A DNA stretch of 64,000 bases from Propionibacteriales bacterium (GCA_026392455.1 JAPLCB010000003.1:186001-250000); one strand, 5' to 3'. Counted from the first letter of the stretch, positions 38,977-45,009 are shown. The notes: generated from the sequence alone by a model not told the origin. Numbers and translations are program-made.

Positions 38977-39174
38977 TCAGGCGCGCAACCGCAGCGCGTT
39001 GCGGGGGCACGCCTTCATCGCTGCCTTGGCCGCACCGACCAGCTCGGGCGTCACGTCGCCGTGGACCAACGGGTAGCCCCAGCGATCAAGGGCCACGATC
39101 TCGGGCAGCAGCTCGTGGCACAACCCGCGGGCCTGGCACGACGGCCAGTCCACCTCCAGCCGCTGGCCGCTCAT
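38977..39174 (-). CDS. Small 3Fe-4S-type ferredoxin
   Basis: 65 residues. Cys13-x5-Cys19 (PSCQARGLCHELLPE) and Cys56-Pro (MKACPRNALRLR) give the three-cysteine pattern of the single-cluster ferredoxins usually paired with P450s; the fourth Cys of a 4Fe-4S site is absent. Its ATG overlaps the stop of the NuoF-like gene (ATGA), making it the last gene of the flavin redox operon. No P450 lies in the window, so its partner is probably the NuoF-like protein. Confidence 0.85.
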   Translation of the reverse strand: MSGQRLEVDWPSCQARGLCHELLPEIVALDRWGYPLVHGDVTPELVGAAKAAMKACPRNALRLRA

Positions 39175-40376
39175 GCGGACCTCGAGAAGTTCGACTCACC
39201 GGCACTGCAACGGCCGACCCGGTGCAGGGCGATCTCTGCTTCGAAGACGGTCCAGGCCGAGCTGACCAACCGGACCGTCCCGTCCGGATGGGCACACGCG
39301 CCGCGGCCGCGAACCAGGTCGGCGAGCTCCTGGACGTCAGCGCCCACGCGCCCGGCGGCAAGGTCCCCGAAGGCCGTCGCCAGGGCAGGAAGACCGTTGA
39401 AGCACGGGCCGCACCGACCCGCGGACTCGCCAGCCAGGTAGCGGGTGACCTGTGCGGTGTAGGTGAGTCCGCAGGCGCCGACAGGCAACGGGATGACCAC
39501 TCCCGCCCCCAGGACCAGCCCGAGGTCCTGCATCGAGGCGACCGAGACCGCGGCCTCGCGCAGCGCACCCGCGGGCGCCCACTGTCCGTGGTAGCCGCCG
39601 ATCAGAACCGGGCGATCGAGTTCCTCGTCGGTCAGGACGGCCTGCCACCGGGTCCCGTGCGGCACTTCCTGGACCGCGATCCGGTTGCCTCGGGTGATGC
39701 TCAGCAGCCGGGTCCCGGGCTCGGCCTCGGTACCCGGGATCCGGCCCTCGGCCAGAACGACCGCAGCGAGCTGGGCGAAGCTCTCGGCGTTGCTCAACAA
39801 GGTCGGCTGTCCGTGCAGGCCCTTGACGGCGGCCGGGTGCCAGGACACCACCGGCAGGTTCTCCCGGCCCTCGATCAGCTCGAGGACAGCACTCGACTCA
39901 CCGGAGACGAAGCCCGTGGAGGCCCGGTGCAGCCGCCAACGCAGCCGCCGGTCCTCCCCCGCCTCAGCCCGCTCGGCGAGTGCCCGGGTGACGGCCTCGG
40001 TGACGAACGCGTGCTCGTCAGGAACGACCAGGTGCACCGTCCGAACGCCCAACGCGTCGGCGACCATGACGGCACCGTCGAGGACCAGGTGCGGCGCGGT
40101 CACCATCAAGGCAGCATCCTTGGAGCTGGCCGGCTCACCCTCGCTGACGTTGACGACCACGTGCCGGCGCAGAGCGCGACCAGAGGCAGCCGTACGCAGC
40201 TTCGTGGCGAACGGGAACCCCGCTCCCCCGCGGCCGAGGACCACGTTCCGGTCGGCCGCAGCGACCAGGACCCCGAACCCCGGCACGACGACCGGCCCGA
40301 AACGGCTCCGGTGGGTGACCAGATCTGGTTGGGCGCTGCCGAGCAACCACGGCCCGCGAGCGATGTCGAGCAGCAT
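39171..40376 (-). CDS. NuoF-like FMN/iron-sulfur flavoprotein
   Basis: 401 residues related to the NADH-binding subunit of complex I. The FMN loop GRGGAGFPFATKL (about 48-60) and NVSEGEPASSKDAAL (about 75-89) match NuoF. Near the C-terminus AGRCGPCFNGLPAL supplies Cys322 and Cys325, with Cys361 later; the first Cys of the usual C-x2-C-x2-C triad is Ala here. It should take electrons from a nicotinamide cofactor to FMN and an Fe-S centre. The ATG at 40376 overlaps the stop of the ferric-reductase-like gene; the ferredoxin overlaps downstream. Confidence 0.82.
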   Translation of the reverse strand: MLLDIARGPWLLGSAQPDLVTHRSRFGPVVVPGFGVLVAAADRNVVLGRGGAGFPFATKLRTAASGRALRRHVVVNVSEGEPASSKDAALMVTAPHLVLDGAVMVADALGVRTVHLVVPDEHAFVTEAVTRALAERAEAGEDRRLRWRLHRASTGFVSGESSAVLELIEGRENLPVVSWHPAAVKGLHGQPTLLSNAESFAQLAAVVLAEGRIPGTEAEPGTRLLSITRGNRIAVQEVPHGTRWQAVLTDEELDRPVLIGGYHGQWAPAGALREAAVSVASMQDLGLVLGAGVVIPLPVGACGLTYTAQVTRYLAGESAGRCGPCFNGLPALATAFGDLAAGRVGADVQELADLVRGRGACAHPDGTVRLVSSAWTVFEAEIALHRVGRCSAGESNFSRSA

Positions 40377-40966
40377 CAGCGCACCCCACGACGCGCCAGC
40401 TCGGGAACCCGGACCGGGCCGCCACGAGCACGGAGGCCCCGGGTGAGCCGAGCCACGAGCGCGGCCAGGACCAGCGTGAGGCACCCTGCGGCGATCCACC
40501 GCGCCCACGCTTCACCGGCATCGGTCCCGATCCCAGCCCCGTGCACGAAAGCCACCGGCCAGGCCGCGTACCCCAGGAGGTGCACCCGGCGCCACGCCCG
40601 GACACTGAGACGGGACTTCACGGCCGTGGACAGGGCCACCACGAGCATCAGGTCGAAGGCGACCGTTCCCAGGCCCAACCAGAACGGCTCGTAGGTAGCC
40701 CCCCACGGGGACAGCGCCTGCCACCAACGGATGTCGACGAACGTGTCCACCACGGCGGTGAGCGCATGAGCGAGGACCAGGGCCAGCCCCAGGATGCTCA
40801 GGTTCCGGTGCAGGTTCTGCGGTACGAAGGCCGGGACCCGGTTGCCTGCGGAGGCGCCGGTGCTCACCATCCCCAGGGCCAGGCTCACCGAGAGCACCAC
40901 GAGCAGGACGATCCCGGTACCGCGGTTGAGGAACCAGAGCAGCGGCCCATCGGTCAGCGCCGCCAT
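40376..40966 (-). CDS. Small ferric-reductase-like transmembrane protein
   Basis: 196 residues with six hydrophobic helices. Two histidine pairs spaced 13-14 residues apart (NLHRNLSILGLALVLAH; RRVHLLGYAAWPVAFVH) are the expected bis-heme ligands for transmembrane electron transfer. It lacks cytosolic FAD/NAD domains, which the neighbouring NuoF-like protein could replace. Start and stop overlap ApbE and the NuoF-like gene (TGATG on both sides), so stoichiometric expression is likely. Confidence 0.8.
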   Translation of the reverse strand: MAALTDGPLLWFLNRGTGIVLLVVLSVSLALGMVSTGASAGNRVPAFVPQNLHRNLSILGLALVLAHALTAVVDTFVDIRWWQALSPWGATYEPFWLGLGTVAFDLMLVVALSTAVKSRLSVRAWRRVHLLGYAAWPVAFVHGAGIGTDAGEAWARWIAAGCLTLVLAALVARLTRGLRARGGPVRVPELARRGVR

Positions 40967-41904
40967 CACAGCGCCCCGGACCGGGCTGGTGCGGGCCACT
41001 GCCCGACGAGATGTACCTGGCCGTCACCGGAGACCAGACGGGCGCTGACTCCGCGAGCCTCGAGCCAGTCGACGGCGTCGTCACCGAGGACCAGCGCCGC
41101 CGTGGCGGCTGCGTTCGCGGCGACACAGGTCGGGCCGGTCGCCGTCGCCGTCCGCCACGGACCCTGCGTCGAGAGCCCGGTACGCGGGTCGATCAGGTGG
41201 TGCCGTTCGACTCCCCCGGCCCGCCACCGCCGCACCTCGGTCGACGAGGTCGCGAGACCGCCTGCGTCCAGCCAGACCGGTGCCGGTGCCACGTCCTGCG
41301 TCGCACCACCCGGGTGCTCGGTGATGTCGATCGCCCACGACCGTGCCTCGTCGCGCGGACCGGCAATGCTGACGTCCCCGCCGAGGCTCACCAGCACCGC
41401 CTCGCCGGTCTCCTCCATCAGGCTCTTGGCCACCAGGTCCGCAGCCCAGGCCTTCGCGGTCGCACCGAGGTCGAGGGCGACTCCGCGCGGAACCCGGACT
41501 GATCCGCCGTCGAGCTCGATCGACTTCCAACGCCCGCGGGACGGTTCAGCCCCGACGACGGCAGCCAGGTCGCGGCGCTGACGGACCTGCTCCAGGTCGA
41601 CGTCGTACCCGAGCTCGACGAGGTTCCGCCCCAAGCCCGGGTCGAGGATGCCCTCGGTGACCTCGGCGACGTCCAGAGCCACCCGAAGCGCTGCTCGGAA
41701 GAGGTCGGAGACCGCGACCCTGGTGCCGGCCGCGGCGTTGGCCCGGGAGAGGTCGGAATCGACCCGGAAGCGACTGCAGGCGGCATCGACGGCGTCGAGG
41801 ATCTCGGCGGCCCGCATCTCCGCGTGCGCGGGGTCCCCGGTGGTCTGCAGGTGGACGTAGGTCCCGAGGGCCCGGAACTCGGTCCAGGAAGGAGCCAGCG
41901 TCAT
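40966..41904 (-). CDS. ApbE-family FAD:protein FMN transferase
   Basis: 312 residues. ApbE moves FMN from FAD onto a Thr/Ser of extracytoplasmic target proteins. Family features: FRALGTYVHLQTTGDP at the start, ALDLGATAKAWAADLVAKSL (the DLGGIAKG-like block), VSLGGDVSIAGP and the FAD/metal-site LIDPRTGLSTQGPW. No clear signal peptide is seen, although most family members act outside the cytoplasm. The ATG at 41904 follows the stop of the Pro-rich protein by one base and overlaps the ferric-reductase-like gene at its end. Confidence 0.88.
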   Translation of the reverse strand: MTLAPSWTEFRALGTYVHLQTTGDPAHAEMRAAEILDAVDAACSRFRVDSDLSRANAAAGTRVAVSDLFRAALRVALDVAEVTEGILDPGLGRNLVELGYDVDLEQVRQRRDLAAVVGAEPSRGRWKSIELDGGSVRVPRGVALDLGATAKAWAADLVAKSLMEETGEAVLVSLGGDVSIAGPRDEARSWAIDITEHPGGATQDVAPAPVWLDAGGLATSSTEVRRWRAGGVERHHLIDPRTGLSTQGPWRTATATGPTCVAANAAATAALVLGDDAVDWLEARGVSARLVSGDGQVHLVGQWPAPARSGAL

Positions 41905-41905
41905 G

Positions 41906-42376
41906 TCAGGATCCCGAGGACGGTGCCGGCGGCGGTGGAGGCGGCGGGGGCTTCGACGCCGGCGGCTTGGACGGCGTGCTGGGCTTGCTCCCGGCGCCAC
42001 CGCCGTTGCCCCCCTTGGTCGCAGGCTTCGAGGGGGCGGACCCGTTGCTCGGACGGCTGGTCACGGTGCCGCCGGAGCCGGGCGAGGTCACTGCGGCGGA
42101 GCTGACCCGCTCGACCACCGTGGTCTTGACGACGGTCCGATGGGGGCGCCGTTTCTCGATGACGACTGCGACGGGTTCCCCGGCAGCGGCCTCGGCCGCG
42201 CGGGCGGCCGACTCGGCCTTGTCGGCCTTCGCCTCCTGGTAGTCCTTCGCCATCTCGCCGGAGACCACACCGGTCGCTGCCAGGGCACCGAACGCGGCGA
42301 CCCCGGTCACGCCTGCAGTCACCACCTGGAACCCGTCGCGGAACCGCGGTGTGACTGCTCTGCGCGGACGCACCAT
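41906..42376 (-). CDS. Membrane-anchored Pro/Ser/Gly-rich protein, first gene of the redox operon
   Basis: 156 residues. A basic N-terminus and a single transmembrane helix (FQVVTAGVTGVAAFGALAAT) are followed by an Ala/Glu/Lys helix and a disordered tail ending in poly-proline (SKPPPPPPPPAPSSGS). GGAGGAG lies 6 bases before the ATG, the best ribosome site of this operon. It occupies the place where related operons carry an FMN-binding protein, but I see no flavinylation motif. Possibly a spacer or scaffold at the cell envelope. Confidence 0.7.
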   Translation of the reverse strand: MVRPRRAVTPRFRDGFQVVTAGVTGVAAFGALAATGVVSGEMAKDYQEAKADKAESAARAAEAAAGEPVAVVIEKRRPHRTVVKTTVVERVSSAAVTSPGSGGTVTSRPSNGSAPSKPATKGGNGGGAGSKPSTPSKPPASKPPPPPPPPAPSSGS

Positions 42377-42567: not shown

Positions 42568-43032
42568 ATGCGCGGTATTACGACGTCGTTGATCGCAGCC
42601 GGAGCGGTTGCCGGTCTGGCCGGGGCAGTGGTCACCTATCAGGCAGCCGCCGGGGAGGCGACCAGCCAGCACACCGTGGTAGCGCCCACCGCCGTCGAGA
42701 CCCCGGCACCGATCATCACGATGCTCCCCTGCGAGAAGGGCACCAAGCTGGTCAAGGGCGCCTGTGTCCGGACCAAGCACCGGATCGTCGTCCGGGAAGC
42801 ACCCGCGGTCACCGCCGCTGCCGCAGCCGAGGCCGTCGTGCCGGTACCAGCCCGTCCGGGCCCGCGCTCCAAGGACCGCAACAGCACCAGGCCGAACCAG
42901 CACCAAGCCGCGGCGCCCGCCGAAGACCGCGACCACGAGTCCGAGGACGAGTCCGACCACGAGTCCGAGGACCACGAGACCGAGGACCACGAGTCGGAGG
43001 ACCACGAGTCCGAGGACGAGCTCGACGACTGA
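42568..43032 (+). CDS. Secreted protein with an acidic DHESED repeat tail
   Basis: 154 residues. A signal peptide or single helix (SLIAAGAVAGLAGAVVTYQA) leads to a two-Cys segment (MLPCEKGTKLVKGACVRTKH) and a flexible middle. The last 40 residues are a run of Asp-His-Glu-Ser/Thr-Glu-Asp units (e.g. ESEDHETEDHESEDHESED). The dense Asp/Glu/His tail could bind divalent metal or Ca outside the cell. GAGGAG lies 6 bases before the ATG. It is next to a two-component system and divergent from the redox operon. Confidence 0.75.
   Translation: MRGITTSLIAAGAVAGLAGAVVTYQAAAGEATSQHTVVAPTAVETPAPIITMLPCEKGTKLVKGACVRTKHRIVVREAPAVTAAAAAEAVVPVPARPGPRSKDRNSTRPNQHQAAAPAEDRDHESEDESDHESEDHETEDHESEDHESEDELDD
42928..43020 (+). 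repeat. In-frame repeat encoding the acidic tail
   Basis: Short near-identical units of the type GACCACGAGTCCGAG recur at 12-15-base steps, in frame with the secreted protein. Such tracts can change length by slippage. Confidence 0.7.
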
Positions 43033-43042
43033 GCGGACCTTC

Positions 43043-44320
43043 TCACCGCTCGCGGGCGTCTGGGACCAACGGGAGCCGGACCATCGCTCTCGTGCCACCC
43101 GGAGCCGCGACCAGGTCGAACGTCCCGGAGGCCGCCGCGACCGTACGACGAACGATCTGGAGCCCCAGGCCGCTGGTCCCGTGCCTACCACCGGACCGGG
43201 TCGTACCCGGACCCCCTCGATCGACGACCCCCAGCACCACGTCACCGTCCCGTTCCTCGACCGTGACGGCGAAGCCGATCCCCTCAGCCGTGTGAGCGAA
43301 GACGTTGTCGACGAGGATGTCGACCACGTCTGAGAGGTCGCGCGGGTCCAGCCCGACGACCAGCCGTCCGTGGTCGAGACGGGTTCCCAGGTCGCGTCCC
43401 TGGTCCTCGGCCAGCGCCGACCAGAAGGCAACCCGCTCCCGCACCACCTCGACCGCGTCGCAGGACGCAGCCATCGTGTGCTCGACCGGCCGGCGCGCGT
43501 CCCGGACCACGGCGTCGACCGTCCGCTGAAGGTTGCCTACGTGCTGGCGCAGCCTCTCGGCGAGGGCTGGGTCGGCGACCCCGTCGACGTCGATGCGCAA
43601 CGCGGTGACCGGGGTCCGGAGGCGGTGGGACAGGTCCCCGACCGCTGCCCGTTCGGTGGTCAACAGCTCGTTGATCCGTTCACCGAGGCGGTTCAACGAG
43701 ACCGCGAGCGCCTTGGTCTCCGGAGAGCCCTCGACCACGGCACGGGCCGTCAGGTCACCCTCCCGGAGCTGGTCGGCCACGCCCGCAACGCCGACCACCG
43801 GGGCACTGATCCGCCGACCGAAGCGATCGGCGATCCCCAGCGCTGCGACCAGCATCAGCGCTCCCAGGACTCCCAGCACCGTCCACGCCTGGCTGACCCC
43901 CCGGTGCAGCTGCGCCCCGGTCACCTCGGTGACCACGACATCGGTGCCGTTGGAGGTCAGGACCGGCACCACGGTGCGGCGACCGTCGCCCACGGAGCGG
44001 GTGAACGCCGCGCCGGCGCGCGCCCGGATGACGTCAGGGTCGTCGACGGCCACGTCACCGCTACCGAGGCGGGCGCCCTCGGCCAGCACCACCGTCGTCC
44101 GTGACGTCGAGCGGACGTCGACGGCCGCAACGGCATCGGCGAGCGCCGGGTCCTCGTGCAGGCTGGAGACCAGGATCGCCACGTCCCGTGCCTCGGCGTC
44201 GGCGCCGGCAGTAGCCCGGTCCTCGGCGAGGCTCTGCACCAGCAGAGCCAACGGGATCAGGAACGCCAGCACCACCGCGGAGGTGGTGGCTGCGACGAGG
44301 ATCGAGATCCGCCGGCCCAT
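43043..44320 (-). CDS. Sensor histidine kinase
   Basis: 425 residues. Two transmembrane helices (about residues 6-28 and 150-170) enclose a sensor domain of about 120 residues. A HAMP-like linker (RFGRRISAPVVGVAGVADQL) leads to the phospho-acceptor His in GDLSHRLRTPVTALRIDVDG and a HATPase domain whose N-box (DILVDNVFAHTAEG) and G-box (HGTSGLGLQIVRRTV) are intact. Its ATG overlaps the stop of the response regulator gene. The signal is unknown; envelope or redox state is a guess from context. Confidence 0.92.
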   Translation of the reverse strand: MGRRISILVAATTSAVVLAFLIPLALLVQSLAEDRATAGADAEARDVAILVSSLHEDPALADAVAAVDVRSTSRTTVVLAEGARLGSGDVAVDDPDVIRARAGAAFTRSVGDGRRTVVPVLTSNGTDVVVTEVTGAQLHRGVSQAWTVLGVLGALMLVAALGIADRFGRRISAPVVGVAGVADQLREGDLTARAVVEGSPETKALAVSLNRLGERINELLTTERAAVGDLSHRLRTPVTALRIDVDGVADPALAERLRQHVGNLQRTVDAVVRDARRPVEHTMAASCDAVEVVRERVAFWSALAEDQGRDLGTRLDHGRLVVGLDPRDLSDVVDILVDNVFAHTAEGIGFAVTVEERDGDVVLGVVDRGGPGTTRSGGRHGTSGLGLQIVRRTVAAASGTFDLVAAPGGTRAMVRLPLVPDARER

Positions 44321-45009
44321 CAGACCTCGTCCGGGTCGGCAAGCCGGACCCCGACACCCCGGACCGTCCTGAGGTACCGCGGCGCGGCGGCGGACTCGCC
44401 CAGCTTTCGCCGCAGCCAGGACAGGTGCACGTCGACCGTGCGGTCCCCGCCACCGTAGGCCTGCTGCCAGACCTCGCTGAGCAGCGTTCGTTTGGTCACC
44501 ACCTCACCCGGCCGGCTGGCCAGTGCCAGCAGCAGGTCGAACTCCTTGCGGGTCAGCACCACCTCGACCCTGTCCAGGGTGACTCTCCGCGAGCGCGGGT
44601 CGATCTCCAGCCCGCCGACCCGCACCGTCCCCTCTCCCGGGCCGGTGCTGCCGCCACGTCTGAGGACGGCCCGGATCCGGGCTGCGACGTGATCGACGCC
44701 GAACGGCTTGACGACGTAGTCGTCGGCACCGGCGTCCAGGGCGGCGACGATGGTGGCGTCGTCGTCACGCGCCGTGAGCACGATGACCGGAACGTCGCTG
44801 ACGCCGCGCAGCATCCCGAGCACGAGCAGACCGTCAACGTCAGGAAGACCCAGGTCGAGCAGCACCACGTCCGGCGGGTCCGAGACGACCGACTCCAGGG
44901 CGGCCAGACCCGAGGGAGTGCTCACCACTGCGTACCCGTGCGACTCGAGGGCCTTGATCATCGACAGACGGATCGCCGCGTCGTCTTCGACGAGCAGAAC
45001 GCGGGCCAT
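44320..45009 (-). CDS. OmpR/PhoB-family response regulator
   Basis: 229 residues. The receiver domain carries the acidic pocket (LLVEDDAAIR), the phospho-acceptor Asp in PDVVLLDLGLPDVDG and the Lys in DYVVKPFG. The C-terminal winged helix has the recognition region TLLSEVWQQAYGGGDRTVDV followed by HLSWLRRKLGE. Cognate partner of the histidine kinase gene that follows. TAGCGT stands 6 bases before the ATG (leaderless type). Confidence 0.94.
   Translation of the reverse strand: MARVLLVEDDAAIRLSMIKALESHGYAVVSTPSGLAALESVVSDPPDVVLLDLGLPDVDGLLVLGMLRGVSDVPVIVLTARDDDATIVAALDAGADDYVVKPFGVDHVAARIRAVLRRGGSTGPGEGTVRVGGLEIDPRSRRVTLDRVEVVLTRKEFDLLLALASRPGEVVTKRTLLSEVWQQAYGGGDRTVDVHLSWLRRKLGESAAAPRYLRTVRGVGVRLADPDEV

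Follow-up and report, generated by a model that had tools for sequence, protein, structure and literature searches.

Which protein does an ApbE modify when no recognisable target is encoded beside it? The question is raised by an operon of five genes on the minus strand, at positions 38,977 to 42,376, of a 64,000-nucleotide stretch of DNA from a Propionibacteriales bacterium (GCA_026392455.1, JAPLCB010000003.1:186001-250000), here called the window. In order, the genes encode a Pro-rich protein with one transmembrane (TM) helix, which we call X; ApbE, a flavin adenine dinucleotide (FAD):protein flavin mononucleotide (FMN) transferase; a PF01794 bis-heme membrane protein; a NuoF-like protein; and a ferredoxin with three Cys. 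The operon encodes neither an FMN_bind domain nor an SGAT motif. We consider it highly probable that it serves an MsrQ-like transmembrane electron transfer fed by NADH, in which the flavinylated partner is X itself, carrying FMN on its C-terminal Ser by the action of a dedicated ApbE.

The C-terminus of X

X (41,906 to 42,376, minus strand) has 156 residues, with one N-terminal TM helix and a tail that appears disordered. A Pfam scan gave no match for X or for five of its relatives, so by this measure none of them is an FMN_bind (PF04205) protein.

Loci of relatives were collected through the NuoF-like protein, from Propionibacteriales and, with alignment A1 of that protein, across the Actinomycetes, both in named genomes and in 394 sampled ones. 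The NuoF-like score alone is insufficient, since the NuoF of complex I also scores, as do L143, L147, L149 and L151, loci with neither ApbE nor X, and the operon and its ApbE were checked locus by locus. Automatic choice of X failed at L061, L062, L131, L137, L142 and L154, most of which were settled by reading the loci. In nearly all loci with an ApbE, X is the gene immediately upstream of apbE, its orthologues occupying this place across the Actinomycetes, and FMN_bind was found in this operon in no relative read. The canonical flavinylation motif was not found in the first set of relatives. The initial annotation of the window had allowed that an FMN_bind protein is the usual operon member and is merely deleted here; comparison of the operons speaks against this, and an ancestral FMN_bind gene lost here is rejected, because the relatives carry X instead.

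The X proteins have a median length of 103 residues, with the TM helix close to an N-terminus rich in Arg and Lys, and a tail of median 65 residues composed largely of Ser (24%), Thr (16%), Gly (12%), Ala (12%) and Pro (9%). The linker is freely variable, being poly-Pro in the window and runs of Ser and Asp in Streptomyces, and the C-terminus is conserved. The ending [S/T]-x-[G/A]-S-stop is found in 80 of 85 non-redundant X proteins, against 2.5 expected from shuffled tails. By position, 83 of the 85 have Ser as their final residue, position -2 is Gly or Ala in 80, and position -4 is Ser or Thr in 84; the entropies at -1, -2 and -4 are 0.18, 0.77 and 0.93 bits, compared with about 3 in the linker. 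The corresponding probability, 2.7e-127, assumes independent tails, which they are not. A control using low-complexity proteins encoded away from apbE was not clean, its matches being mostly further X-type proteins, and for this reason shuffled tails and the FMN_bind partners of other ApbEs serve as controls. The ApbE-linked FMN_bind proteins carry D-x-[VI]-S-G-A-T before their end and finish with ...SLQSA[LI]DxA.. in 17 of 17 cases, never with a tail of the X type. Four loci (L019, L077, L084 and L168) encode a second protein ending in [ST]x[GA]S besides the first candidate for X.

The tail compared with the ApbE motif

The motif recognised by ApbE is D-x-x-[S/T]-G-A-[S/T], in which the flavin is accepted by the last residue; these seven residues suffice for flavinylation, and as tags they work best at a protein terminus (PMC12052999). 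Ten X proteins of the Streptomyces type end in D-S-T-S-G-A-S-stop, which is exactly this motif with the acceptor as the last residue. Neighbours of other ApbEs, in genomes that lack FMN_bind, also end in the exact motif (DATTGAS at L165 and DSNTGAS at L179), and L163, in a further such genome, has the motif plus one extra residue (DTSTGASG). Elsewhere the X tails read H/Q-x-x-[ST]-[SGN]-G-S, which lines up with the motif except that x-G takes the place of G-A. In the window the final heptapeptide (41,909 to 41,929, minus strand) is PAPSSGS, a degenerate form in which the [ST] and acceptor positions match, the putative acceptor being Ser156. The acceptor motif in X became visible through the alignment of relatives, in which the Streptomyces tail is exact. 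The earlier statement that the operon encodes no acceptor thus stands as regards FMN_bind and SGAT and probably fails as regards X, whose SSGS-stop end corresponds to the ApbE motif in this register.

A short conserved C-terminus often serves as a recognition signal, and most of the tails, that of the window included, differ from the exact motif. The tail could on these grounds be a docking or processing signal, for ApbE, the cytochrome, a protease or a cell-wall enzyme, that is itself not flavinylated, the substrate being another protein. We regard this as unlikely: several lineages have the ApbE heptapeptide in its exact form at this very position, and no residue of the tail is more conserved than the one at the acceptor position.

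Several points weigh against X as the flavinylated partner. Both the covalent flavin and its site are proposed from sequence. The SSGS of the window departs from SGA[ST] at two positions, having S-G for G-A, and the Asp is absent, so that the match is not exact; in the fumarate reductase of K. pneumoniae, changing the Gly to Ala or the Ala to Val reduced flavinylation to about 50%, while loss of the Asp had little effect (PMC12052999). The 85 tails share ancestry and so are not independent, and a few relatives deviate, ending in RGDT (L097), TVCY (L100) or TSSS (L101). Finally, the ApbE has no signal peptide, so that one must suppose either that a flavinylated tail is exported or that the localisation is different. 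On the other side are the operon itself, the conserved tail, the exact motif in several lineages, the dedicated clade of ApbE and the many carriers without FMN_bind described below.

Selection at the level of the protein

X and apbE frequently overlap (ATGA or GTGA), and TCN codons predominate for the last Ser, so the conserved C-terminus might be a by-product, at the level of DNA, of the start/stop overlap with apbE or of a ribosome-binding site. The overlap, however, constrains the last codon in its third base alone. Codons vary at positions -1 to -4 of X, with all four Gly codons in use, and the motif is kept where apbE does not follow. X lies directly before the cytochrome gene, with its tail kept, at L037, L041, L046, L108, L124 and L133. 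In four named mycobacterial genomes and in G060 there is no apbE in the operon and X still ends in SRGS; the ApbE of these mycobacterial genomes is encoded elsewhere, adjoining a ferredoxin gene. At L137 and L131 an X-type protein with the tail kept is found beyond the ferredoxin gene, and not before apbE. Because the motif persists away from apbE and its codons vary, an origin in the overlap or the Shine-Dalgarno sequence is rejected as extremely improbable, and the sequence comparison indicates that the tail is selected at the protein level.

The mycobacterial loci L037, L041, L046, L108 and L124 also show the system split in two, with X, the cytochrome and NuoF at one site and ApbE and the ferredoxin at another.

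A dedicated ApbE

The ApbE of the operon (40,966 to 41,904, minus strand; PF02424, 5.5e-45) is encoded after a gap of 1 nt from X. It aligns to the solved FMN transferases 1vrm and 6nxi and keeps the catalytic region H-x-x-D-P-x-T-G. In a tree, built by a rapid method and weak in its deep forks, one clade (approximate likelihood-ratio support, SH-aLRT, of 98) unites the ApbEs of X operons with the unlinked mycobacterial ones, apart from the clade of the FMN_bind-linked ApbEs (97). The genome has two ApbE genes in total, one in each of these clades.

The second ApbE is on contig C7. The genome search suggested in the initial annotation was made, and it found a single FMN_bind protein, also on C7, with the normal motif DMVSGATVTS. 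X might accordingly be a mere scaffold, with this canonical protein as the distant acceptor. But the C7 gene lies between that of a ferric-reductase-like protein, which precedes it and whose C-terminal part is NAD-binding, and that of its own ApbE, of the other clade. Many genomes that have X and an operon-type ApbE have no FMN_bind protein at all, which weakens the idea of a distant target further. DUF2271 is no better an alternative: in 21 genomes tested there was none above the cut-off, and one match below it. We therefore give the scaffold little credence. The initial annotation had offered a scaffold or a new kind of target as the role of the Pro-rich protein, and it is the new target that is well supported.

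Among the 394 sampled genomes, ApbE is found in 213 and FMN_bind in 151; 148 have both, 65 have ApbE only and 3 have FMN_bind only. Most of the 65 were read, and a tail protein is present in most of the ApbE neighbourhoods read. A NuoF-like or NuoF match was obtained in 26 genomes of family f7, which is taken as mycobacterial on the strength of named loci that share its ApbE clade. Of these 26, the five with the operon-type protein, and no others, have ApbE, and none has FMN_bind, a profile whose chance of arising is 1.5e-5 only if the genomes are independent. M. litorale (G445) has one ApbE and neither FMN_bind nor DUF2271.

The main other group with ApbE only (L180 and L197-L202) has a distinct ApbE clade, preceded by a lipoprotein that carries the motif TSGGFN close to its C-terminus, most of these ending in ...GSSLTSGGFN..A...IK..A. 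The FMN_bind profile misses this lipoprotein, which from its sequence is possibly an undetected, divergent relative of FMN_bind.

Other subfamilies of ApbE (L163, L165, L171, L176 and L187; L164, L170, L173, L182 and L183; L119 and L120) have neighbours with one TM helix that end in TGAS, TGASG, TGGS, KGSG, TKSS or KASGG, which extends the idea of a C-terminal tail beyond the operon of the NuoF type. Since these other tail-type ApbEs fall outside both clades, tail substrates may be ancestral or may have several origins. Taken more generally, we think it likely that there are natural flavoproteins with no flavin domain, in which FMN is held as a phosphoester on the last residue of a disordered tail tethered to the membrane, attached by a dedicated clade of ApbE, probably before export, to give an electron carrier that swings or spans the cell wall; such proteins would account for most ApbEs of Actinomycetes that seem to have no target.

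Proposed topology and electron path

The remaining genes supply the route by which electrons would reach the flavin. The PF01794 protein (40,376 to 40,966, minus strand, with the start ATG at 40,966; Ferric_reduct, 6.2e-07) is a ferric-reductase or MsrQ-like membrane cytochrome of the b type with two pairs of His. These four His are shared, without change, by at least 132 of 133 aligned relatives and by the window protein, as expected of a protein with two hemes; it had been described as a bis-heme protein at the outset, and the alignment bears this out. The NuoF-like protein (39,171 to 40,376) is an NADH-binding flavo- and Fe-S protein by its Pfam matches (PF01512, Complex1_51K, 1.2e-28; PF10589, NADH_4Fe-4S, 6.1e-13) and by alignment with its relatives. 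By score it falls outside the NuoF of complex I, its best NCBIfam match being nuoF_fam at 132 bits, below the cut-off of 558.65; a second and more ordinary NuoF match lies on contig C6 of the genome. The small ferredoxin (38,977 to 39,174; PF13459, Fer4_15, 3.4e-10) has only three Cys and by sequence is of the 3Fe-4S type. Translational coupling runs through all five genes: the junctions on either side of the PF01794 gene are TGATG overlaps, and that of the NuoF-like protein with the ferredoxin is an ATGA overlap. Positions, gaps or overlaps and Pfam matches agree with the initial description of five tightly coupled genes, which had also read correctly both the redox wire from NAD(P)H to the outside and the unusual part played by the Pro-rich protein.

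By the positive-inside rule X would be anchored by its one helix with the N-terminus inside and the C-terminus outside: Lys plus Arg averages 4.0 in the N-terminal flank of the helix and 0.4 in the C-terminal flank. A twin-Arg pair precedes the helix in 55 of 85 X proteins, making export of X by the twin-arginine translocation (Tat) route possible. A signal peptide or lipoprotein anchor, usual though not universal in ApbE, is not recognisable in either ApbE of the genome, a hydrophobic stretch precedes the ApbE domain in only 1 of 163 loci, and cytosolic ApbEs are known (PMC12052999). If ApbE indeed lacks a signal peptide and X has its C-terminus outside, FMN would be moved from FAD onto Ser156 in the cytosol, before export of the tail.

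The lack of a signal peptide, together with the cytosolic location of the NuoF-like protein, would also suit a variant in which the tail of X is flavinylated and stays in the cytosol, shuttling electrons between NuoF or the ferredoxin and the cytochrome. The strong positive-inside bias of X argues against this topology, as does the extracytosolic location of the flavin proteins in other MsrQ-like systems (PMC8238504), and we judge it rather improbable. With the tail of X outside, its residues, rich in Ser, Thr, Gly, Ala and Pro, would form a flexible tether for the flavin. Electrons would then pass from NADH to the FMN and Fe-S centres of the NuoF-like protein, and by the ferredoxin, the inner heme and the outer heme to the tethered FMN, an order and direction suggested by homologous MsrQ-like systems (PMC8238504). 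The final acceptor would be extracytosolic, and those in the cell wall would be within reach; ferric iron, a quinone and a cell-wall protein are candidates.

Neighbouring genes and variant loci

The divergent neighbour of X (42,568 to 43,032, plus strand) encodes a protein with one N-terminal TM helix, two Cys and an acidic tail rich in His, Asp and Glu. The loci most closely related to this operon, L013, L014 and L148, encode similar proteins, and the window protein may be a metal-binding partner or an electron acceptor. A histidine kinase and a response regulator (43,043 to 45,009, minus strand) also adjoin the operon, as does a two-component system in relatives (for example L013, L014 and L019), and several further ApbE loci of the tail type have response-regulator matches nearby. 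Operon genes at L014 (NuoF-like) and L066 (ApbE and NuoF-like) contain in-frame stops or are split between frames, through decay or assembly error. At L143, L147, L149 and L151 (families f20, f22 and f40) there are a NuoF-like protein, a ferredoxin and a weak PF01794-like match, with neither ApbE nor X; these clusters are apparently a related system free of flavinylation.

Comparison with known systems

The type of cluster is known. MsrQ-like flavinylation gene clusters have been described, 31 of them bearing NuoF (Meheust et al., 2021, PMC8238504), and like these, which are mainly from Actinobacteria, the window operon brings together ApbE, a PF01794 bis-heme protein with its two His pairs encoded next to apbE, and a PF10589 NuoF-like protein. 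Those clusters typically include an FMN_bind gene, whereas the window operon has none and carries X in that place. In the same survey about 17% of the genomes with flavinylation had ApbE without FMN_bind. For such ApbEs, which here means 65 of 213 ApbE-bearing actinomycete genomes, the C-terminal tail motif offers a concrete target. If the proposal is true, a flavin carrier needs no flavin-binding fold, and an extracytosolic redox system is present in streptomycetes, mycobacteria, Rhodococcus, Nocardia, Arthrobacter and others.

The substrate is apparently new. A domain-less tail substrate with a C-terminal acceptor was not found described in the open literature searched, an absence that does not prove it new. 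The ApbE substrates described are FMN_bind, DUF2271, DUF3570, NqrB/RnfD, Flavodoxin_4 and FMN_red with a C-terminal extension (PMC8238504, and PMC11334425 for those added since); in the open papers all have a folded domain or a membrane protein around the motif. X resembles them in presenting a Ser or Thr in a motif like [ST]GA[ST], FMN_red even having its motifs on an unstructured C-terminal extension, and differs in having no folded flavin-binding domain and in placing the acceptor at the last residue. Within the same genome, the C7 cluster likewise combines a PF01794-type membrane protein, ApbE and an exported flavinylation target, and unlike the window operon it has a canonical FMN_bind domain, an NAD-binding domain fused to the membrane protein and an ApbE of the other clade. 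A further parallel is an engineered one, the Flavin-tag (Tong et al., 2021), which as reviewed in PMC12052999 is a D-x-x-[ST]-G-A-[ST] heptapeptide, best placed at a terminus and flavinylated by ApbE; the X of Streptomyces resembles a natural version of the tag, and the tail in the window a degenerate one.

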